Position numbers and translations under genes: made by a program. From Gallionella sp. (GTDB lineage: Bacteria > Pseudomonadota > Gammaproteobacteria > Burkholderiales > Gallionellaceae), in contig SCPW01000353.1 of assembly GCA_004298605.1 (NCBI GenBank), positions 1 to 19,687 of the forward strand: 19,687 nt of DNA, written 5' to 3'. The notes under the pieces are model-generated. The model saw only the letters and a program-made list of their open reading frames with translations, was not told the DNA's origin and ran no database searches. This document shows positions 2,028-13,488 of this stretch, piece by piece (positions within the stretch are counted from its first letter, which is position 1; the number at the start of each line of letters is the position of its first letter).

Positions 2028-2096
2028 GGGCGCGATTCATCGCGCCCTGATTACCCATGTACGGAAGAAGGGCGCGATGAATCGCGCCCCTACGGC
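2021..2096. repeat. Perfect inverted REP pair (BIME-like) between convergent genes
   Basis: Two 27-base arms (2021-2047 and 2070-2096) are exact reverse complements around a 22-base spacer. Each arm contains one REP unit (2024-2047 plus, 2070-2093 minus): GTAG, stem arm GGGCGCGA, loop TTCA, stem arm TCGCGCCC. Thus each unit folds alone into an 8-bp hairpin, and the pair can fold into one 27-bp hairpin. A 5' GTAG at the hairpin foot is the known hallmark of REP sequences mobilised by RAYT transposases. The element lies between two convergent genes and carries the stop codons of both. It may act as a bidirectional transcription barrier or 3'-end stabiliser (inference); there is no T-tract for a classical intrinsic terminator. 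Confidence 0.93.
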
Positions 2097-4372
2097 GCTG
2101 TCAGCTTCGCATACTCCAACGCCAGCCACTTCACCCCGGCCTTGCGGAAATTGACCTGTACACGCGCATCCGCACCGCTGCCCTCTACGCCGGTAATGAC
2201 ACCCTCGCCGAATTTCTGGTGGAGTACGCGCTGGCCGGTACGCCAACTGGATGTGCTTGCGGAACGCTGTATTGGTGCGGCAACCGGTGCATTACGCTGT
2301 GGCGTAAACGGGGAGGCGAACGGGCTGCGCTGCGCCATGCGCGGCGAGAGCCAATGCAACAAGTTGTCCGGCAGCTCGCGCAGGAAGCTCGATGCGCGGC
2401 CATAGCTCACCTGACCGTGCAGCATACGGCTCTGCGCGAAGCTCAGGTACAGCCTGCGCCGCGCGCGCGTAATCGCCACATACATCAGGCGGCGCTCTTC
2501 ATCCAGCCCGCCATCCACATTCTGGCTGTTCTGGTGCGGGAACAAGCCCTCTTCCAAACCAGTAATGAATACCGTATGAAATTCCAATCCCTTGGCGGCA
2601 TGCACGGTCATCAGGTGCAGCGCATCATCCTGGTCGCCGGCCTGATGCTCGCCCGCTTCCAGCGAGGCGTGGGTGAGAAACGCGGTCAGGCTGTCGTCTT
2701 CGTTTTCATGCACGAACAGCGTCGCCGCGTTAATCAGTTCGTTCAGGTTTTCCAGCCGCTCCTCGGCCTCGCGCTTCTTCGCGCCGGTTTCATTCTGGTA
2801 ATGCGCGATCAAGCCGCTGTGGTGCAGTACATGATCCATGATTTCCGGGAGCGGCAATTCGCGTGTTGCACCGCGCAGCGACTCGATCAGCGCGACGAAT
2901 GCCGAGACTTTGCCGCCCGCGCGCGCCGCCGTATCCCATAGCGTAGTGGTATTTATTTTCGCTGACTCTTGCAACTGCTCGATGCTGCGCGCGCCGATGC
3001 CGCGCGTGGGGAAATTGATGATGCGCAGCAGCGCGTTGTCGTCATCGGTGTTTTCCATCAGGCGCAGATAGGCCAGCGCGTGCTTGATTTCCTGCCGCTC
3101 GAAAAAGCGCAGCCCGCCATACACGCGATACGATAATCCGGCGGAAACCAGCGCGTGTTCCAGCACCCGCGACTGCGCGTTGGAGCGGTACAGCAGCGCG
3201 ATTTCCTTGAGGTTGATTCCCTCGGATTTCAGTTGTTGAATCTCGCCGACGATGAAGCCGGCCTCTTCCACGTCGGTCGGCGCCTCGTACACGCGCAGCG
3301 GCTCGCCGCCGTTTTCCGAAGTCCACAGATTTTTGCCGAGGCGGTTGCGGTTGTTGCTGATTAGGACGTTGGCTGCTTCCAGGATGTTGCCGTGCGAGCG
3401 GTAGTTCTGCTCCAGTTTGATGACGTTCTCGACGTGAAAATCGCGCGTCAGCGCCTGCATGTTGCCGACATTCGCACCGCGAAACGCATAGATAGATTGG
3501 TCGTCGTCACCGACAGCAAAAAGCGCCGCAGGCGCGGCGTTCGCCCCCTCTCCCAAAAATTGAAGATTGCCTTTCACGTTTGTCCTTTCTCCCGCTTGCG
3601 GGAGAGAGTTAGAGAGAGGGGCTTCAAGCGGGAGAGGGTTGGGGAGAGGGCGTTTTTCGCCAACCCCCGCCAGCAACTTCAGCCACTGATATTGCAGCTT
3701 ATTCGTATCCTGAAATTCGTCCACCAGAATATGCTTAAACCGTTCCTGGTAATGCTCGCGAATAGACGCGTTGCGCGACAGCAGCTCATAGCAGCGCAAC
3801 AACAGCTCGGAAAAATCCACCACCCCTTCGCGCTGGCATTGCGCATCGTATTCGGCGAACACTTCCACCTTGCGCCGCGTGAACGGATCGTAGGCTTCCA
3901 CCTCATGCGCGCGCAAGCCCTGCTCTTTGCTGCTGCTGATGAAATTCTGCACATCGCGCGGCGGGAATTTTTCGTCATCGACATTCATCGCCTTCATCAG
4001 CCGCTTGATCGCGGAAAGCTGGTCGCCGCTGTCGAGAATCTGGAAAGCCTGCGGCAGGTTCGCCTCGCGGTAATGCGCGCGCAACATGCGGTTGCACAGC
4101 CCGTGAAACGTGCCGATCCACATGCCGCGCGTGTTGATCGGCAGCATTGCCGACAGGCGCGTAACCATCTCTTTCGCCGCCTTGTTGGTGAAGGTCACGG
4201 CCAGAATGCCGTGCGGGCTGACCGCGCCGGTGCTGATGAGATACGCGATGCGCGTGGTTAACACACGCGTTTTGCCGCTGCCCGCGCCCGCGAGGATCAG
4301 CGCGGACTGGTGCGGCAGCGTGACAGCTTGGCGTTGTTCGGGATTGAGACCGGAAAGCAGGGAAGAATTCAT
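2090..4372 (-). CDS. uvrD: DNA helicase II (UvrD) with in-frame repeat insertion
   Basis: An ATP-dependent 3'-5' superfamily 1 helicase acting in nucleotide-excision and mismatch repair. Walker A is GAGSGKT (29-35) and motif II is VDEFQDT (217-223). Motif III is GDDDQSIYAFRGA (from 288), followed by EQNYRS, the YGGLRFFERQEIKHALAYLRL block, TVHAAKGLEF and VAITRARRRL. The C-terminal Tudor-like tail GQRVLHQKFGEG...VKWLALEYAKL separates UvrD from Rep. At 760 residues it is about 40 longer than the E. coli protein. The excess is a proline-rich stretch (242-278, PLPNPLP to GEGAN) encoded by a repeat element and placed just before motif III. All catalytic motifs are intact, so activity is probably kept. 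The stop codon TAG belongs to a REP sequence, yet the C-terminus is full length. Confidence 0.95.
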   Translation of the reverse strand: MNSSLLSGLNPEQRQAVTLPHQSALILAGAGSGKTRVLTTRIAYLISTGAVSPHGILAVTFTNKAAKEMVTRLSAMLPINTRGMWIGTFHGLCNRMLRAHYREANLPQAFQILDSGDQLSAIKRLMKAMNVDDEKFPPRDVQNFISSSKEQGLRAHEVEAYDPFTRRKVEVFAEYDAQCQREGVVDFSELLLRCYELLSRNASIREHYQERFKHILVDEFQDTNKLQYQWLKLLAGVGEKRPLPNPLPLEAPLSNSLPQAGERTNVKGNLQFLGEGANAAPAALFAVGDDDQSIYAFRGANVGNMQALTRDFHVENVIKLEQNYRSHGNILEAANVLISNNRNRLGKNLWTSENGGEPLRVYEAPTDVEEAGFIVGEIQQLKSEGINLKEIALLYRSNAQSRVLEHALVSAGLSYRVYGGLRFFERQEIKHALAYLRLMENTDDDNALLRIINFPTRGIGARSIEQLQESAKINTTTLWDTAARAGGKVSAFVALIESLRGATRELPLPEIMDHVLHHSGLIAHYQNETGAKKREAEERLENLNELINAATLFVHENEDDSLTAFLTHASLEAGEHQAGDQDDALHLMTVHAAKGLEFHTVFITGLEEGLFPHQNSQNVDGGLDEERRLMYVAITRARRRLYLSFAQSRMLHGQVSYGRASSFLRELPDNLLHWLSPRMAQRSPFASPFTPQRNAPVAAPIQRSASTSSWRTGQRVLHQKFGEGVITGVEGSGADARVQVNFRKAGVKWLALEYAKLTAP
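3539..3649 (-). repeat. In-frame hairpin-rich repeat inside uvrD
   Basis: A 111-base (37-codon) element inside uvrD. It shares long identical blocks with the element inside leuS, written here on the plus strand: CGTTCGCCCCCTCTCCC, ATTGAAGATTGC, TCTCCCGCTTGCGGGAGAG and CGGGAGAGGGTTGGGG, in that order. The third block is a hairpin with almost no loop. Edges are set by comparison with the leuS copy and with normal UvrD, where LLAG is followed within about ten residues by the VGDDDQ motif; they are uncertain by a few bases. The element has no stop codon in the uvrD frame, nor in one of the opposite-strand frames. Confidence 0.85.
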
Positions 4373-4493
4373 GGCGGGATTATCCCACAGGATTCCGCTT
4401 CGCCATATCGGACGCCATAGCGCCTACTTTTAAGGGCATCTCTATAAATAGAGGCGCCCTCAACTTGAGCCAATCCAGTGCAACACACTAAAG

Positions 4494-4522
4494 TTGAGTA
4501 ATGTTGGCAATCCACGTAAAAT
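4494..4522 (+). promoter_or_regulatory. Sigma70-type promoter for tRNA-Gly
   Basis: The -35 box TTGAGT (4494-4499) and -10 box TAAAAT (4517-4522) are separated by exactly 17 bases. Transcription would begin near 4529, only a few bases before the mature tRNA 5' end at 4533. The discriminator after the -10 (TGCTGCGCTC) is GC-rich, as in stringently controlled stable-RNA promoters. An 8-bp inverted repeat (CTCAACTT 4459-4466, AAGTTGAG 4491-4498) overlaps the -35 box and could be an operator, but this is speculative. Confidence 0.65.
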
Positions 4523-4532
4523 TGCTGCGCTC

Positions 4533-4606
4533 GCGGGTGTAGTTCAATGGTAGAACGGCAGCTTCCCAAGCTGCATACGACGGTTCGATCCCGTTCACCC
4601 GCTCCA
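4533..4606 (+). tRNA. tRNA-Gly, anticodon CCC
   Basis: Full cloverleaf by eye. The acceptor stem GCGGGTG/CACCCGC pairs in all 7 positions. The D arm is GTTC-AATGGTA-GAAC. The anticodon arm is GCAGC-TTCCCAA-GCTGC with anticodon CCC, and the T arm is GACGG-TTCGATC-CCGTT with one G-U pair. The discriminator is T and the CCA tail is genome-encoded (4604-4606). It reads the glycine codon GGG. It lies alone between uvrD and an unrecognised gene and points towards the 3' end of the latter, 20 bases away. No T-tract terminator follows. Confidence 0.97.
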
Positions 4607-4626
4607 CTCTCACCACCGACAGACTG

Positions 4627-5526
4627 CTAGTCGAAAATCGGCACCCCGGCGCGGCGCACGGCACGCTTGTAGATGGAAGTGGAGTCGCCCAATCTTTTCG
4701 ATGCTTCTTCATAGCGTTTTTTCTCGCCCGAGGCCAGGCCTTCCTTGCGTATCTCACTGGCCAACCTCACGTCGTTGAGGAAATCCGTGTCCGATGCGAT
4801 AGCCATTTTCTTGCGCTCATCCATGAACATCTCGACCAGGCTCAGGTAGGTATCGTTGCGGAACGCTTCGTATTCGTATATTCCTTTGGGACTGTTGTCT
4901 TTCTGGGCAGTGACTGTGGTGCCTTGCTTGATGGATTCGATGGCGACCTTGAGTGCCAGGAATGCCTTGTCCAGCAACTTGCGACCGTCAACATGCTTCT
5001 TCTCCGCCGCCAGGTTGTTGGCGTTCTTCACCAGCCCATGAATATTTTTCAGCGCGGCATCGGAATTCTTGCCAGATTCCTTGGCGGTTCGTTCCAGGGC
5101 GCCGGTCAAGGCATTAACGCTGTCCAGCATATGTTTGAAATCGCCCTCTTCCTTGCTGGCAAGCGCCACCCCCGGCTCTGCCTGTTGCGCGGCGGCAAAG
5201 AAGGCTTTCTTGGCTTCATTGGAAAGATGGATGGCCTCCGCGTAATTTTTGCTTTCCAGCGCCTCGTGGGCCTCATGGCGTATGTTCTCCGCGTCATGCA
5301 TGAGGGTGGAAACTGCCCCGGACTTGCTGTTACCCACCTGCTTGGCGGCCGATGAACCCGAAAACAGTTTTTCCATTTCATTGACAGAGTTTTCGGCACG
5401 TTCCGGGGTGGCGGGCTGTTGTGCCAGCTTGGCCGCCGAGGAATGCGTCAGGTCATTGGCATAAGCGGCGCAGGAAGCGGAAGCAAGCAGCACGGCCAAG
5501 GCAGTACCCATTGCATGTTTGTTCAT
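4627..5526 (-). CDS. Unrecognised exported helical protein
   Basis: I do not recognise a family. The 299-residue product has a clear signal peptide (MNKHAMGTALAVLLASASCAAYA, cleavage after AYA), so it should be periplasmic or secreted. The mature part is charged and predicted mostly helical, with no cysteines. Two stretches look like relatives of each other: EALESKNYAEAIHLSNEAKKAFF (about 88-110) and NLAAEKKHVDGRKLLDKAFLALKVAI (about 172-197). Both have the spacing of TPR-like helix pairs, so an internal duplication is possible. The C-terminal third (EYEAFRNDTYLSLVEMFMDERKKM onward) is distinct. A GGGAGA ribosome site precedes the ATG. The gene has its own likely promoter and stands alone between the tRNA and a lipoprotein gene. 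Confidence 0.75.
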   Translation of the reverse strand: MNKHAMGTALAVLLASASCAAYANDLTHSSAAKLAQQPATPERAENSVNEMEKLFSGSSAAKQVGNSKSGAVSTLMHDAENIRHEAHEALESKNYAEAIHLSNEAKKAFFAAAQQAEPGVALASKEEGDFKHMLDSVNALTGALERTAKESGKNSDAALKNIHGLVKNANNLAAEKKHVDGRKLLDKAFLALKVAIESIKQGTTVTAQKDNSPKGIYEYEAFRNDTYLSLVEMFMDERKKMAIASDTDFLNDVRLASEIRKEGLASGEKKRYEEASKRLGDSTSIYKRAVRRAGVPIFD

Positions 5527-5849
5527 CTTCAGTATCTCCCTTTACGGTTTAGGGCAATGTCTCGCAAGCAGCCAGCCGTGATGGAACCGATGATTTTCCT
5601 GCAAGACAAGGGGTTGCAGCGCAGCAGGACGGGGAAAAATACGGTTCATGGCGGGTTATTTGCGGGGCGCTGCACGGGGGTTTTTAAAATCGATGGGCAA
5701 TTGTAAGCAATTAGGGGCGCGAGTTGGGAAGTAATTGAATAATCGGATCAATTTTTGGGCGGAGCCACATTTGTTTTTCTTCGTGAAAACTTCGGCGGAA
5801 AACATGGCTCGATCCCTTGAGAATATCCGGCGCAACAAGAGCCCCACCT
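5527..5849. other. Intergenic region between two minus-strand genes
   Basis: A 323-base stretch without a convincing gene. On the minus strand it holds the ribosome site and a possible promoter of the downstream exported-protein gene. Part of it (about 5680-5800) is more AT-rich than the surrounding genes. I see no REP copy, tRNA or classical terminator here, and no short reading frame with a believable start. Confidence 0.6.
5682..5710 (-). promoter_or_regulatory. Possible promoter of the exported helical protein gene
   Basis: On the minus strand, TTGCTT (plus 5705-5710) and TTAAAA (plus 5682-5687) are 17 bases apart, in an AT-rich island. This would leave a 5' leader of about 150 bases before the ATG at 5526. 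Boxes match the sigma70 consensus only partly. Confidence 0.4.
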
Positions 5850-6404
5850 TCATTTCACATCGGGGCAATTTGCTACGCACCGCACCCCGCTGGTCCGCCT
5901 GCCGCCGCACGCGAGGAAACAGGCGTCGGAGACAGTCTGGCAGCCGCAATCCACCTCGCATTTTTCCTGGCGCAGCCGGTTAACTTCTTCGTCGCGAACG
6001 GGTTTTCCCGGCGGCTCGGGCGGAAAATAGTGCGGGTCGGGCCATGCGGGGTAATACCCGTAACCGTACCAGGGCGGGCGGTTCCAACTCATGGACAGGT
6101 ACAACTGGTAACGCTCCAGCTCCCCGCGGTAGCGGTCCAGATCGGCTTCATAGCGCTTGAGCGCTTCGCCGTAGCGCCCATCCGCCTGCGGCTCGATGAG
6201 CTTCAGGCAGGACTGGTAATTTGCCGTGCAGCGCTGCTGGCAGGCTTCTATCTTCTGCCCGCATTTTTCCAGGCAGACAAGCCCCTCCGAATCCGTGGGC
6301 AACTCATAACGGTATGCGGTCTGGTAGCGGGGGGACGGGCTGGCGCAGGCGGCCAGTACGGCGGCTGCAATAACGGGAAGCGAGGTGCGCAGCGGTAGAA
6401 TCAT
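5850..6404 (-). CDS. Cysteine-rich putative lipoprotein
   Basis: No family recognised. The 184-residue product begins with a lipoprotein signal, LPVIAAAVLAAC, whose lipobox LAAC puts the lipidated cysteine at about residue 20. The mature part has two cysteine clusters. The N-terminal cluster (about 43-66) has the pattern CLEKC-x6-C-x3-C-x6-C. The C-terminal one (about 149-180) has CEVDCGC, CFLAC, CVANC. Between them lie a charged helical segment (YGEALKRYEADLDRYRGELERYQLYL) and a Trp/Tyr/Pro-rich loop (WNRPPWYGYGYYPAW). The even spacing of cysteines suggests disulfides or metal binding outside the cytoplasm (inference). It is co-directional with dsbD just upstream, a gene that maintains periplasmic thiols, so a functional link is conceivable. 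No clear ribosome site is visible. Confidence 0.7.
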   Translation of the reverse strand: MILPLRTSLPVIAAAVLAACASPSPRYQTAYRYELPTDSEGLVCLEKCGQKIEACQQRCTANYQSCLKLIEPQADGRYGEALKRYEADLDRYRGELERYQLYLSMSWNRPPWYGYGYYPAWPDPHYFPPEPPGKPVRDEEVNRLRQEKCEVDCGCQTVSDACFLACGGRRTSGVRCVANCPDVK

Positions 6405-6418
6405 GGTGGATTCGCAGT

Positions 6419-6436
6419 GGCGCGATTCGTCGCGCC
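6419..6436. repeat. Decayed REP hairpin
   Basis: GGCGCGA-TTCG-TCGCGCC forms a 7-bp hairpin matching the REP core elsewhere in the window, but the flanking GTAG is missing. It lies between dsbD and the lipoprotein gene. On the minus strand the hairpin comes about 30 bases after the dsbD stop and is not followed by a T-tract. Confidence 0.7.
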
Positions 6437-6466
6437 TTTCTCATGATGCATGAAAAGACCAGATTT

Positions 6467-8293
6467 TTAAAGCCCGACACCTTGTAGCGTTTTCAGAAAA
6501 TTGGCGGCATCCTGATAGCCCGTCACGCGGGAATCGCCCAGTTCATTGCCACGTGCATCAAAAAACAGGATAACGGGCGGGCCGTACAAACCATAGCGTT
6601 TGAGCAACGCTTTGTCGGCATCGCTGTTGGCGGTCAAATCCGCTTGCAGCACTAGCACCGGCTTGAGTTTGGCCTGCACGGCGGGATCGCTGAAAGTGTT
6701 GTGCTCCATCTCTTTGCAGGATACGCACCAGTCCGCATAAAAGTCCAGCATCACCATCTTGCCGCGCGCCCCGGCGAGGCGCTGATCGAGTTCGGCCAGG
6801 TCTTTGACGCGGGAGAATTGCAAGCCGGCGGAAGCTTGCGCCTCGGCTCTGACGAGGGCGCCCAGCGGGCGCAGGAGGTCGCGCGCGCCGGACAGCGCGC
6901 CGATCAAATAAGCCGCACCCAGCAGAAAAGTAAATATGCCGATGCCTTTGAGCAGCTTGTGCCAGCCGTGCGCGTTGTGCGGCAAGGCATCCAGCGCGCG
7001 CAGGTAAACCGCCGAGAAAATCAGCAATGCCGCCCACAGCAGCATCTGCACGCCGATGGGCAGCAGCGATTGGACGATCCAGATCGCCAGCCCCAGCAGC
7101 ATCACGCCGAAGACGCTCTTCACCGATTCCATCCACGCGCCCGCCTTGGGCAGCAACACGCCCGCCGAGGAACCGATCAGCAGCAGCGGCGCGCCCATGC
7201 CGAGCGCCAGCGCGAACAGGGCGACACCGCCCAGCACCGCATCGTGGGTCTGGCCGATGTAGAGCAGCGCACCGGCCAGCGGCGCGGCGACGCACGGGCC
7301 GACGATGATGGCGGACAGCGCGCCCATCATGAACACCCCGCCGAGATGCCCGCCGTGCAGTTTGTTGCTGGTATCGGACAGCTTGCTCTGCAACGCGGTC
7401 GGCAGTTGCAGCTCATAAAAGCCGAACATCGACAGCGACAGCAGCACGAATATCCCGGCGAAGCTGCCCAGCACCCACGGCGTTTGCAGCGCGTTGGAAA
7501 TCAGGTTGCCGGAAAGCCCCGCCGCCACACCCGCCGCAGCATAGGTGATCGCCATGCCCAGCACATAGGCCAGCGACAGAATGAAGGCGTGCATGTGAGT
7601 GATCTTGTGGCCGCGCCCGACGATGATGCCGGACAAAATCGGGATCATCGGGAATACGCACGGGGTGAACGCCAGCAACAATCCGGCGCCGAAGAAGAAG
7701 GTGACGATCAGCCAGAAATTGCCCTTTTTGAACAATTTGGAAATTTGCGCATTTTCGGATTGCTCTGCGGTATCGGCTGAACGGCTTGCCACCGGCTCTG
7801 CGCGGGGAAGAGGATTCGCGCTGGCGCCGGCGTCAGGCAGGCTGATTTGCAGGGTCGGCGTGATCGGCGGATAGCACAAGCCCTGCTCGCTGCAACCGAT
7901 ATATTTCGCGTTCAGCGCGATAGTCTCGGCGGCAGCCGCACCGCGCTCCAGCACGATTTCGGCCTGGAACGAGTTATGGAACACCTCGATGGCGCCGAAG
8001 TTGGGGTCTTGTTTTATTTCGCCCTTGGGCAAATTGACCGCCGTTATTTTGGCCGTGCCGCCAGTGGTCGAGAAGCTGATTTTGTCGCGGTACAAATAAT
8101 AGCCGGGCGTTATCCTGAAATTGGCCTGCAAGGTATGCCCATCGCGGGCGCTGACCTCCAGCCCGAAGGCTTGCTCGGGAGGCAAAAAAGTCGGCTGCTT
8201 GGTTCCGCCCAGCGCGGGCAAACGATCCAGGAAACCCGAAGCATTCGAGGCGGGAGCGATGAAACAAAGCAGCAACAGCAAAATAAAACGCAT
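6467..8293 (-). CDS. dsbD: Thiol:disulfide interchange protein DsbD
   Basis: Carries electrons from cytoplasmic thioredoxin across the inner membrane to periplasmic partners such as DsbC and cytochrome c maturation factors. All three domains are present in 608 residues. A signal peptide (1-19) leads into the periplasmic alpha domain with the redox pair Cys134/Cys140 (GCSEQGLCYPP). The membrane beta domain spans about 195-475, with its two essential cysteines in TPCVFPMIP (Cys212) and GPCVAAPLAGAL (Cys334). The gamma thioredoxin-like domain has WCVSC (Cys523/Cys526). Length and order match the family. The start lies 2 bases after the cutA stop, with GAGGA in the cutA end as ribosome site, so translation is probably coupled. 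Confidence 0.96.
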   Translation of the reverse strand: MRFILLLLLCFIAPASNASGFLDRLPALGGTKQPTFLPPEQAFGLEVSARDGHTLQANFRITPGYYLYRDKISFSTTGGTAKITAVNLPKGEIKQDPNFGAIEVFHNSFQAEIVLERGAAAAETIALNAKYIGCSEQGLCYPPITPTLQISLPDAGASANPLPRAEPVASRSADTAEQSENAQISKLFKKGNFWLIVTFFFGAGLLLAFTPCVFPMIPILSGIIVGRGHKITHMHAFILSLAYVLGMAITYAAAGVAAGLSGNLISNALQTPWVLGSFAGIFVLLSLSMFGFYELQLPTALQSKLSDTSNKLHGGHLGGVFMMGALSAIIVGPCVAAPLAGALLYIGQTHDAVLGGVALFALALGMGAPLLLIGSSAGVLLPKAGAWMESVKSVFGVMLLGLAIWIVQSLLPIGVQMLLWAALLIFSAVYLRALDALPHNAHGWHKLLKGIGIFTFLLGAAYLIGALSGARDLLRPLGALVRAEAQASAGLQFSRVKDLAELDQRLAGARGKMVMLDFYADWCVSCKEMEHNTFSDPAVQAKLKPVLVLQADLTANSDADKALLKRYGLYGPPVILFFDARGNELGDSRVTGYQDAANFLKTLQGVGL

Positions 8294-8295
8294 GT

Positions 8296-8625
8296 TCAGT
8301 CCTCAGAGGTGGTGGTTTGCCCGTTCACCCAATCCAGATAAGCGGGCAGACCCGCTGTCACAGGGACAGCGATAATTTCGGGAAGTTCGTAAGGGTGTGC
8401 CGCGCGGATCAATTTTTCGAGGCGCGGATAGGCATCCGGCGTAGTTTTAATCAGCAGCGGCACTTCCGTGGCGGTTTCGATATTGCCCTGCCAGCGGTAA
8501 GTCGAAGTGCAGGGCGCGAGCTGGTTCACGCAAGCGGCGGCACGCGCCTCGACCAGTTGGCGCGCCAGTTTTTCTGCGGAGGGCGCGTCGGGTAAATTGG
8601 TGATCACTAGCAATATTTCATTCAT
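8296..8625 (-). CDS. cutA: Divalent-cation tolerance protein CutA
   Basis: A small cytoplasmic protein of 109 residues, known as a very stable trimer and linked to copper/divalent-ion tolerance; its precise role is unsettled. Recognisable blocks are LLVITNLPD at the N-terminus, AACVNQLAPCTSTYRWQG, EVPLLIKT, and the closing HPYELPEIIAVPV...YLDWV. I chose the ATG at 8625 because MNEILLVI matches the family start; the longer frame runs into the repeat element. The repeat ends only 10 bases upstream of this ATG and no Shine-Dalgarno sequence is visible. Translation may therefore depend on the structured leader or be weak. dsbD follows after 2 bases, a common pairing. Confidence 0.93.
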   Translation of the reverse strand: MNEILLVITNLPDAPSAEKLARQLVEARAAACVNQLAPCTSTYRWQGNIETATEVPLLIKTTPDAYPRLEKLIRAAHPYELPEIIAVPVTAGLPAYLDWVNGQTTTSED

Positions 8626-8635
8626 TTCTATAACC

Positions 8636-8785
8636 GTAGGGGTGCGATTCATCGCGCCCAAGCTTGTTCGCACATCAGAAAAAGGGCGCCAGCCCTCTAT
8701 CCAACTTTCCCCCAGAGGGGGAAAGGGCGATTGTTCCCTCTCCCTCCGGGAGAGGGTTTGGGTGAGGGGCGAATCGCGCCCCTAC
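8636..8785. repeat. Composite REP-bounded multi-hairpin element, copy 1
   Basis: A 150-base element with five hairpins in series. A REP (8636-8659; GTAG foot, one G-T pair in the stem) comes first. Then AGGGC-GCCA-GCCCT (8683-8696), TTTCCCCC-AGA-GGGGGAAA (8706-8724) and CCCTCTCCC-TCC-GGGAGAGGG (8736-8756). Last is an inverted, shortened REP (8766-8785). The outer ends are inverted copies of GTAGGGGCGCGATTC or nearly so, as in a MITE. The last 103 bases match copy 2 at 10357-10459 in all but three positions by eye. The element fills the holA-cutA gap. Confidence 0.92.
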
Positions 8786-8801
8786 GGGGCATTTCCCATA
8801 T

Positions 8802-9806
8802 TCAAGCCTTGGCAAAACGCAACCCGAGTTGCAGCAGCTCATCCCACACATCGCCCTGCCGCAGCCCTTTGATGGTTTTATCCAAGCGTGCGGCCTGTTG
8901 TATGCCGCGTTCGATGTGCGGCAATTTCACGCGGCGCACCGCATTTTCGATCAGCCCTTGGCGCGGCCCCCACACTCTGGCATCGCGCAGCGCGTTGCCG
9001 ATGTTGGCGCCGCGTTGCGTGGCTTGCAGCACTTTGCCCAAGGTGCGGATTTCTTCGCTGATCGCCCACAGCACCAGCACCGTGGCGGTCCCTTCGGCGC
9101 GCAGCCCGTCGAGGATGCGCGCGAAGCGCGCCGCATTGCCGTTCAGCATGGCTTCCGAAAGCTTGAAAATATCGTAGCGCGCCACGTCCATCACCGCGTC
9201 TTTGACCTGCTCGAAAGACAGCGGCCCGGCCGGAAACAGCAGCGCGAGTTTCTGTATTTCCTGGAAGGCCGCGAGCAAATTGCCTTCGCTCCGATCCGCG
9301 ATAAATTCCAGCGTGGCATTGTCCGCGCTTTGCTCCTGCCGCTTGAGGCGACCGGCGATCCAGCGCGGCAGCGCGCTGCGCGGAATATCGTCGGCGGAAA
9401 TCATCACGCCGCGTTGCGCCAACGCGCCGAACCACTGGCTCTTCTGCGCGGTCTTGTCGAGTTTGGGCAAGGAGATCAGCGTGAGTACATCTTCACTCAG
9501 GTTGGCGCAGTAATCCTGCAACGCCTGCCCGCCCTCCACGCCGGGCTTGCCGGACGGGATGCGCAAATCCACCACTTTGCGCGATGCGAACAGCGACAGG
9601 CTCTGCGCGCTGTTGCGCAACTCGCTCCATTTGAAATGCGTTTCGGCAATGAATGTTTCGCGTTCGGCATACCCGGCAGCGCGCGCCGCCGCGCGTATGC
9701 TGTCCGCCGCTTCGATCACCAGCAACAGCGCGTCGCCGTACACCACATACAGCGGCTTGAGGCCGGAAGCGAGGTGGCGCGGCAGGTCTTCGCTGGTGAT
9801 GGTCAT
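8802..9806 (-). CDS. holA: DNA polymerase III delta subunit
   Basis: The clamp-loader subunit that opens the beta sliding clamp during replication; cytoplasmic. The 334-residue protein is close to the usual length of about 340. Typical features are the N-terminal LKPLYVVYGDALLLVIEAADSIR, the SLFASRKVVDLRIPSGKPG segment, and the middle block ADRSEGNLLAAFQEIQKLALL. The collar domain follows (RFARILDGLRAEGTATVLVLWAISEEIRTL). Delta lacks a working Walker A loop, as here. The gene starts 1 base after the lptE stop, so it is coupled to lptE. The leuS-lptE-holA order is standard in proteobacteria. The composite repeat element begins 16 bases after the stop codon. Confidence 0.95.
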   Translation of the reverse strand: MTITSEDLPRHLASGLKPLYVVYGDALLLVIEAADSIRAAARAAGYAERETFIAETHFKWSELRNSAQSLSLFASRKVVDLRIPSGKPGVEGGQALQDYCANLSEDVLTLISLPKLDKTAQKSQWFGALAQRGVMISADDIPRSALPRWIAGRLKRQEQSADNATLEFIADRSEGNLLAAFQEIQKLALLFPAGPLSFEQVKDAVMDVARYDIFKLSEAMLNGNAARFARILDGLRAEGTATVLVLWAISEEIRTLGKVLQATQRGANIGNALRDARVWGPRQGLIENAVRRVKLPHIERGIQQAARLDKTIKGLRQGDVWDELLQLGLRFAKA

Positions 9807-9807
9807 G

Positions 9808-10296
9808 CTATTGCTGCAATTGGGGTTTGGCGCGGCTCAAGCGCCGCACGATCTGCTGCACCATGTCCTGGCGCATGCTTTGGACGAGCAAGGCTTCCTC
9901 GGCCTCCTTGGCGAGAATCCGGGTGTCGTCGTAAGAATAATCGCGGCGCAAGGTGATTTCCTCGGCGGGTATCCAGTCGCGCTGCTTGAGGTCGTAGGCG
10001 CGCAGTGAAACGCGGTAGAGCAGTTTGAATTCATTCACGCGTCCGCTTCCGCCCAGCGTCAAAATCTGCTTGTCTGGAATTTCAAAAACGATGTTGAGCA
10101 CTACGTCGGCCTGTTCGGCGGCATTCACCAGCCTCACCCCATTGGACTCCAGGCTGCGCCGCAAATCGCCAATGAAGGGCGTATTGGGGTTGGCCGCATC
10201 CAGATACAGCGCGGCGAACGGCATCCCCACCTGGCCGCGCAGATGGAAGCCGCATGCGGTCAGCAGCAGGACGGTCAACATTACAAACAAGCGCAT
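9808..10296 (-). CDS. lptE: LPS-assembly lipoprotein LptE
   Basis: The outer-membrane lipoprotein that plugs the LptD barrel and helps insert lipopolysaccharide into the outer leaflet. The 162-residue product has a lipoprotein signal MRLFVMLTVLLLTAC with Cys15 as lipid site, followed by GFHLRG, the family's hallmark. Later blocks ADVVLNIVFEIPDKQILTL, RVNEFKLLYRVSLRAYD and the C-terminal MRQDMVQQIVRRL also fit. AGGATGG lies 8-10 bases ahead of the ATG as ribosome site. It sits between leuS and holA, the usual location, but is separated from leuS by a composite REP element whose edge is only 14 bases upstream of this start. Confidence 0.94.
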   Translation of the reverse strand: MRLFVMLTVLLLTACGFHLRGQVGMPFAALYLDAANPNTPFIGDLRRSLESNGVRLVNAAEQADVVLNIVFEIPDKQILTLGGSGRVNEFKLLYRVSLRAYDLKQRDWIPAEEITLRRDYSYDDTRILAKEAEEALLVQSMRQDMVQQIVRRLSRAKPQLQQ

Positions 10297-10310
10297 TACG
10301 CCATCCTTTT

Positions 10311-13488
<3,178 letters not shown>

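Follow-up and report, generated by a model that had tools for sequence, protein, structure and literature searches.

The best-known palindromic repeats within protein-coding genes are those of Rickettsia, for which genome decay offers a possible cause, and repetitive extragenic palindromic sequences (REPs) mobilised by RAYT, also called REPtrons, are clustered hairpins with a head and a tail. The Rickettsia palindromic elements (RPEs; Ogata et al. 2000) are palindromes of 105-146 bp that occur both intergenically and, in frame, inside numerous unrelated conserved genes, and their insertion can be tolerated, Gmk remaining active with a changed substrate affinity, according to the portions of PMC2229807 and PMC10969869 consulted. 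Intragenic REPs of the GTAG and CGTC superfamilies were described by Di Nocera et al. (2013); in the sections covered of that paper, many of these lie in UvrD/Rep helicases, UvrABC, RecBCD, DNA polymerase I and tRNA synthetases, and flexible linkers or loops were proposed to tolerate them (PMC3733652). The same sections characterise the CGTC superfamily by a CGTC (or TGTC/CCTC) tag, an 8-9 bp stem starting with A-T pairs and a CCA tail, and include S. lithotrophicus among the CGTC-positive species (PMC3733652). Additionally, ORFs of MITEs (ERIC/RU-1 and the 107-bp Correia element) have been found fused in frame to host ORFs, as the consulted part of PMC2229807 relates.

We analysed a 19,687-nt stretch of a Gallionella contig (the window), which belongs to an assembly of 2.30 Mb in 462 contigs that is 85.8% complete. 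The first-pass annotation had noted two related repeats inside uvrD and leuS. Both are present, 77% identical over 113 nt by blastn and in the same orientation, and the features that we assign are as follows.

2090..4372, minus strand: uvrD host gene, with the Pfam UvrD-helicase and UvrD_C matches flanking the insert
3535..3651, plus strand: repeat inserted in uvrD, the host gene on the minus strand reading PLPNPLP-LEAPLSNSLPQAGERTNVKGNLQFL-GEGAN (sequence comparison, empty sites in relatives, low-pLDDT model loop)
3546..3554, plus strand: outer REP left arm CCCTCTCCC, uvrD copy (sequence)
3573..3620, plus strand: inner unit in the outer REP loop, uvrD subtype AGTTAGAGAGAGGG (aligned copies)
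3630..3650, plus strand: outer REP right arm and tail GGGAGAGGGTTGGGGAGAGGG, uvrD copy (sequence, pattern search)
8747..8768, plus strand: intergenic relative (the unit's tail part) within a 104-bp repeat at 8683-8786
10420..10443, plus strand: intergenic relative (the unit's tail part) within a 104-bp repeat at 10357-10460
10456..13476, minus strand: leuS host gene, the sole strong LeuRS editing-domain match in the assembly
11394..11507, plus strand: repeat inserted in leuS, the host gene being on the minus strand (sequence comparison, relatives, PDB chain alignment)
11405..11413, plus strand: outer REP left arm, leuS copy (sequence)
11434..11481, plus strand: inner unit in the outer REP loop, leuS subtype GGATTGAGGAGAGGG (aligned copies)
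11486..11506, plus strand: outer REP right arm and tail, leuS copy (sequence, pattern search)

The window also holds a separate GTAG-tagged REP family, GTAGGGGCGCGATTCATCGCGCCC, at 2020-2097, 6414-6438, 8634-8660 and 10311-10336, one copy of which is a perfect 29-nt inverted pair. The two 104-bp repeats are 97% alike and adjoin copies of this family.

The two inserts had been described as sharing one frame. This holds at both ends, where they are entered as PNPLP and left as GEGAN, but the middles are in different registers, that of uvrD reading PLSNSLPQAGERTN. The lengths first given, 37 and 36 codons, are too short when empty sites are taken as reference: in uvrD 52 codons separate KLLA from GDDDQ, versus 9 in empty relatives, and leuS has about 48 codons (counted by eye) more than the empty-site relative L106. 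Several frames had been said to lack stop codons, which is so for the leuS element, with four of six frames open (three antisense, one sense); in the uvrD element two of six are open. The best segment of leuS is 83% identical to Gallionella and 78% to Ferrigenium records, which puts the window within the Gallionellaceae or close to them. A second, weak LeuRS editing-domain match was found on contig C294. The uvrD insert maps between residues 239 and 243 of 2is1 (DNA helicase II), the best PDB chain for UvrD, and the leuS insert between residues 568 and 570 of 6q89, the best for LeuRS. In an AlphaFold2 model of the interrupted UvrD (mean pLDDT 80.9, pTM 0.54), residues 241-276, which have a helix of the helicase core on one side and a strand on the other, fall below a pLDDT of 50.

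The element is a REP-like palindrome with the hairpin CTCTCCC-loop-GGGAGAG and a tail like GATTGAGGAGAGGG or GGTTGGGGAGAGGG, often preceded by a left module, TTGAAGATTGCTTTTCTCGTTCGC. Aligned copies have outer REP arms, CCCTCTCCC and GGGAGAGGG, followed by the tail TTGGGGAGAGGG, and in the outer loop an inner unit made of TTGAAGATTGCTTTTCTCGTTCGC and a second REP whose tail is GATTGAGGAGAGGG (leuS type) or AGTTAGAGAGAGGG (uvrD type). Each window insert folds as a hairpin within a hairpin, and outer arms are found on both sides in 35 of 79 units under a one-mismatch rule, with L250 doubtful. The length of the composite is a multiple of three in 13 of 15 composites called in-gene, 6 of 10 not so called and 9 of 10 in a mixed set from the window's own genome. 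Multiples of three in the 6 of 10 are not demanded by selection on genes alone; such lengths may arise by design, or composites may be copied as units. Some intergenic copies (L056:3192-3243, L083:2849-2900 and similar ones) lie inside larger arms, GAAACTCGC...GCGAGTTTC and then AACGGGCATGGC...GCCATGCCCGTT.

The exact 20-nt core palindrome occurs at 32 places in the window's genome, with none for the reversed control. For the leuS element blastn gives 51 matches in the same genome, two of which, on contig C433, were left out of the fetched copies. A looser 21-nt pattern with three mismatches gave 70 places versus 27 for its reversed control, so that single short matches of that kind are unsafe. 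Copies were taken with their flanks and grouped into 67 clusters, and 32 open frames around them were scanned with Pfam; coding scores gave a first look only, and Pfam matches decided the in-gene calls. We found 20 conserved genes in which a copy lies in frame and is either flanked on both sides by Pfam matches or spanned by one: ppc, a lysA-like decarboxylase, murD, an APH-family kinase, glnE, cobB, cobT, a Methyltransf_28 protein, two cheA, cheR-TPR, MmeI, hrpA (two copies), pelB, a further Mur ligase, ugd, recG, cysH, uvrD and leuS. In the APH kinase and in glnE, the match beyond the insert is inferred from a second stretch reported by Pfam, and the copies in ugd and recG are diverged relatives of the repeat. 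Weaker cases, with a one-sided Pfam match or a position near the gene end, are 3HCDH, an RNB nuclease, nuoC, an N6_N4 methylase, an Eco57I-like protein, a Mur ligase with two tandem copies, a VWA protein, mnmA, Memo, a radical SAM protein and a Spermine_synth protein. In ddl a sense copy at the gene end runs past it, two of the scanned frames (L097 and L050) had no Pfam family, and the remaining copies lie between predicted genes.

One unit type, sought in 100 genomes of the family, was found at 77 places in 29 genomes, 13 of these places being in the window's own genome. Among the 64 copies in the 28 other genomes, 34 lie within the open frame of a Pfam-matched gene, a sample that favours in-frame copies because in-gene status was first recognised by an open frame. 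The hosts in relatives are radical SAM proteins, thiC, RNB nucleases, Cu-ATPases, acyl-CoA dehydrogenase, nuoC, lysA, lgt, APH kinases, ABC-F proteins, priA, gpsA, hypD, an FAD protein, glnE, a UvrD_C protein, tilS, AMP-binding ligases, cobB, metG, cusB, a DEAD helicase and acrB, where names beyond the Pfam titles are our own assignments. The Pfam match is one-sided in 11 of the 34 (L227, L229, L235, L246, L251, L252, L253, L262, L277, L278 and L288), the other side being called from the open frame and coding score, and the hypD copy (L252) is doubtful, as it is close to the N terminus and may reflect a start-site effect. For the other 30 copies, 10 same-strand neighbour pairs were tested and all 10 belong to different Pfam families, two of these pairs being families also known as fusions (POR alpha/beta subunit, response regulator/CheA). 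Three such pairs tested in the window's genome are likewise different genes (YCII/IspA, Fe-S_biosyn/NifU and Ppnp/DUF520). No broken genes were seen, all 13 same-strand pairs tested by Pfam being unlike and the remainder being judged by gene prediction. In three genomes a copy adjoins a 180-aa gene (IspA by Pfam in the own-genome L075) and a 100-aa gene (L075; L263 in G090; L264 in G088), which has the look of a single old insertion between genes that was inherited by all three.

The register in which in-gene copies are read is far from random. We entered 48 copies by an exact anchor (34 from relatives and 14 from the own genome) and dropped ppc and 3HCDH, where the anchor was unmatched, and tilS, which is in sense; automatic labels from the own-genome survey were unreliable because of a fuzzy anchor, and registers there were read from the peptides instead. 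The 45 antisense copies use register f1 in 29 cases, f2 in 16 and f3 in none, where 16 were expected; 38 of the 45 have f3 open across the unit. After collapsing to gene family and frame the chance of zero f3 is 1e-7, and where all three registers are open f1 is used in 13 of 14. The f1 peptide is characterised by Pro/Ser/Gly/Glu and that of f2 by Pro/Asn/Gly/Ala, both hydrophilic; f3 is strongly basic, with a net charge of +7 over the leuS element, and reads as LSRKRER. In the uvrD subtype a stop is usual in f1, and f2 is used there. Readings of the f3 type are rare and present in other unit types (murD, a Mur ligase, one of two ppc REPs, and polA in G062). A side sample with another pattern gave 35 places in three genomes, of which 30 were fetched and 10 frames scanned; eight frames match a gene family, including the polA read in f3, and two match none. 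Sense insertions in genes were found in tilS (one of the 34 in relatives), in cheR and in the diverged ugd copy. Register use is thus strongly selected, which is most simply explained if the peptide it encodes must be tolerated. The first-pass annotation had proposed a genome-wide search, in which in-gene copies with consistent frame use would count for its reading and nearly exclusively intergenic copies with no frame preference against it. The 20 genes of the own genome, the 34 copies in relatives and the strong preference for f1 and f2 bear its reading out.

Orthologues show the same sites empty, occupied and nested. Ahead of EPF, the leuS loop is short in relatives such as L106, L107, L115, L117 and L121, holds a simple REP peptide in L105, L108, L109 and L156, is in another register in L111 and L119, and carries a nested insert in the window and L113. 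Among 30 relatives the uvrD site is empty in 12 (GxxNALFAV or alike) and occupied in 18 (own included), a ratio biased towards occupied sites, since the query was itself occupied and the 30 were the top scorers of 100. At the occupied sites the stretch that carries the insert measures 81-156 nt and is read in f1 or f2, and no clean target duplication could be read from occupied versus empty relatives. Within the f2 REP of uvrD we observe unrelated inner sequences, namely PLSNSLPQAGERTN in the window, LHPSPLRGGGAG in L294 (with a variant in L309) and DETISHSTKPASG in P0115, and P0124 has two inner kinds together; the f1 REP contains GETTSHSTKPASG or alike (L293, L305). The chance level for such nesting was judged by reasoning. 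A protein search gave mostly UvrD orthologues, instead of other hosts, among the 120 of 2336 matches listed. The APH-family kinase P0277 contains a three-level nest of repeats. The loops of CTCTCCC repeats also receive a third coding repeat, DETTSHSTKPASGQVAGYP and alike, which is nested in the uvrD of L293 and L305 and in P0051, P0058, P0070, P0071, P0083, P0092, P0270 and P0277. The APH-kinase site (P0215-P0334) holds different subtypes (PLPNPLP..GEGAN, PLLNPLP..GEEAN, PLSNSLP..GERTN), as if in-gene copies there had been converted by other copies.

The family is common in the Gallionellaceae, of which we take S. lithotrophicus to be a member, and patchy elsewhere. At one mismatch or fewer the core is present in 76 of 100 family genomes, with 0 to 131 copies each and none for the reversed control. 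The exact core, a more stringent search than that in the family, is present in 14 of 273 other genomes of the class (15 of 274 with the own genome), four of which are rich with 49, 27, 15 and 11 copies. In a set of 5.8 billion proteins the f1 peptide was found in 94 of 124 candidates, in at least 30 Pfam architectures by our own count, and the proteins with a named organism are mostly from Gallionella or its kin and one from Thiobacillus. The suggestion of a broad, poorly described phenomenon is to be limited in both respects, the spread outside the family being patchy and both intragenic REPs (PMC3733652) and RPEs having been reported already.

The repeat had also been proposed to be a mobile or spreading element. 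Occupied and empty sites argue for mobility, but a mobiliser was not found. Y1_Tnp (PF01797) is present in 78 of the 100 family genomes, and its count does not correlate with the core count across them (both counts transcribed by hand; Spearman 0.12, p 0.24); four genomes with at least 20 core copies are without any Y1_Tnp. The only Y1_Tnp of the window's genome (RAYT-like; contig C35, L104 at about 698-1480) is flanked and invaded by a different repeat, GGAGCGCGGGCGTCCCGCCCGC, with one copy of the CTCTCCC family about 750 nt downstream, past the next gene, and 12 other RAYT loci have no core within the fetched flanks. A RAYT as mobiliser thus receives no support. The GGAGCGCGGGCGTCCCGCCCGC repeats code GARASRP/RDARAP, and the same peptide starts an ORF at L104 2819 (citrate-synthase-like by eye).

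With in-frame copies, selected registers, occupied and empty sites, and nesting all observed, we consider it likely that a dispersing palindrome is kept only where its translation is tolerated and then becomes a landing site for further repeats. The REP-like repeat would disperse through Gallionellaceae genomes, presumably by transposition, and enter intergenic DNA and genes alike. In-gene copies would survive mostly when antisense, with a total length that is a multiple of three and in f1 or f2, the LSRKRER register and the sense registers being mostly purged. The translated insert would then form a flexible Pro/Ser/Gly-rich loop between intact folded parts, with a near-neutral effect on the host. 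The hairpin loop of a settled copy could serve as a safe landing place that the same or unrelated repeats enter in frame, so that the protein insert would grow like Russian dolls; stray DNA seems in this way to be turned stepwise into new protein sequence. More speculatively, and with rather low confidence, the repeats may be a selfish DNA family adapted to coding DNA, with as many as three antisense registers open, two of which would encode harmless linkers, with composites tending to multiples of three even outside genes and a loop as landing pad, for which the inside of essential proteins would be a niche and nesting a ratchet that builds disordered segments.

The strong preference for f1 and f2 could also be expected if the inserted peptide were useful, that is, a domesticated linker selected for its role in the host proteins. 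The APH kinase agrees with this, since the insert is at the same place in all 114 parsed of the 120 relatives listed, and in the commonest length class, 84, its conservation is 0.68, compared with 0.74 for the left flank and 0.95 for the right. However, the kinase search was made with the insert as query, insert-free relatives being outside its reach, and different repeat subtypes occupy that one site. The hosts are, moreover, unrelated enzymes, and the uvrD loop is in f1 in some relatives, in f2 in others and empty in 12 of 30, so that we regard a useful linker as improbable.

Tolerance of a translated insert is also favoured over its removal from the mature product, whether skipped or excised as RNA or protein (bypass, intron or intein-like). 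The inserts as single-stranded DNA do form nested hairpins that beat most shuffles (z -2.1 to -2.6), but neither has an Rfam family match, and all 45 in-gene copies are open in one of two registers where skipped DNA would need none; these copies were chosen by open frame, their register bias was not. Removal is accordingly very unlikely. An assembly or binning artefact of repeat-rich metagenome contigs might be suspected from the 462 contigs and 85.8% completeness of the own genome, but in-frame copies occur in many independent assemblies, including the one-contig genomes G050 and G069, and we give this explanation almost no weight.

Besides Rickettsia, the Gallionellaceae are thus a further bacterial group with coding palindromes in dozens of conserved genes, and with a series from empty through simple to nested at one site. 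This amounts to a natural insertion-tolerance experiment for proteins such as LeuRS, UvrD, MetG, PheT and PEP carboxylase, and it becomes possible to test in living cultures whether new protein segments are built by mobile DNA.

The analogy with RPEs first drawn from the window is sound as a likeness of behaviour, and we extend it no further. As with RPEs, the palindromes of the family measure about 100-150 bp and sit in frame in many genes that are unrelated; in this sense the family works like RPEs. Unlike RPEs, its hosts are not obligate intracellular, and it has a modular REP, in-frame nesting of several families and measured register selection. With the intragenic REPs of PMC3733652 it shares hairpins inside the ORFs of helicases and tRNA synthetases, as far as the covered sections of that paper go; it differs in that copies nest in each other's loops, and register statistics are absent from those sections. 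By eye, no GTAG tag is conserved at either hairpin end in 24 aligned copies, which sets the family apart from the GTAG superfamily, and the stem CTCTCCC/GGGAGAG with the tail GATTGAGGAGAGGG or similar departs from the CGTC pattern as given in the same sections. It resembles REPtrons in its hairpin with head and tail and its clustered copies, and is unlike them in having no link to Y1_Tnp that we could find. The MITE ORFs, in the part of PMC2229807 consulted, are likewise short non-autonomous repeats whose open frames are joined to host ORFs. The outer arms of the Gallionellaceae repeat are inverted repeats, with no target duplication readable at the uvrD site. Our literature search found nothing that joins Gallionella with repetitive extragenic palindromic sequences, nor the peptide motifs of the repeat. 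Overlap with the intragenic lists of PMC3733652 is possible; as far as we searched, the family with its scale, its measured register selection and its ordered in-frame nesting are new.
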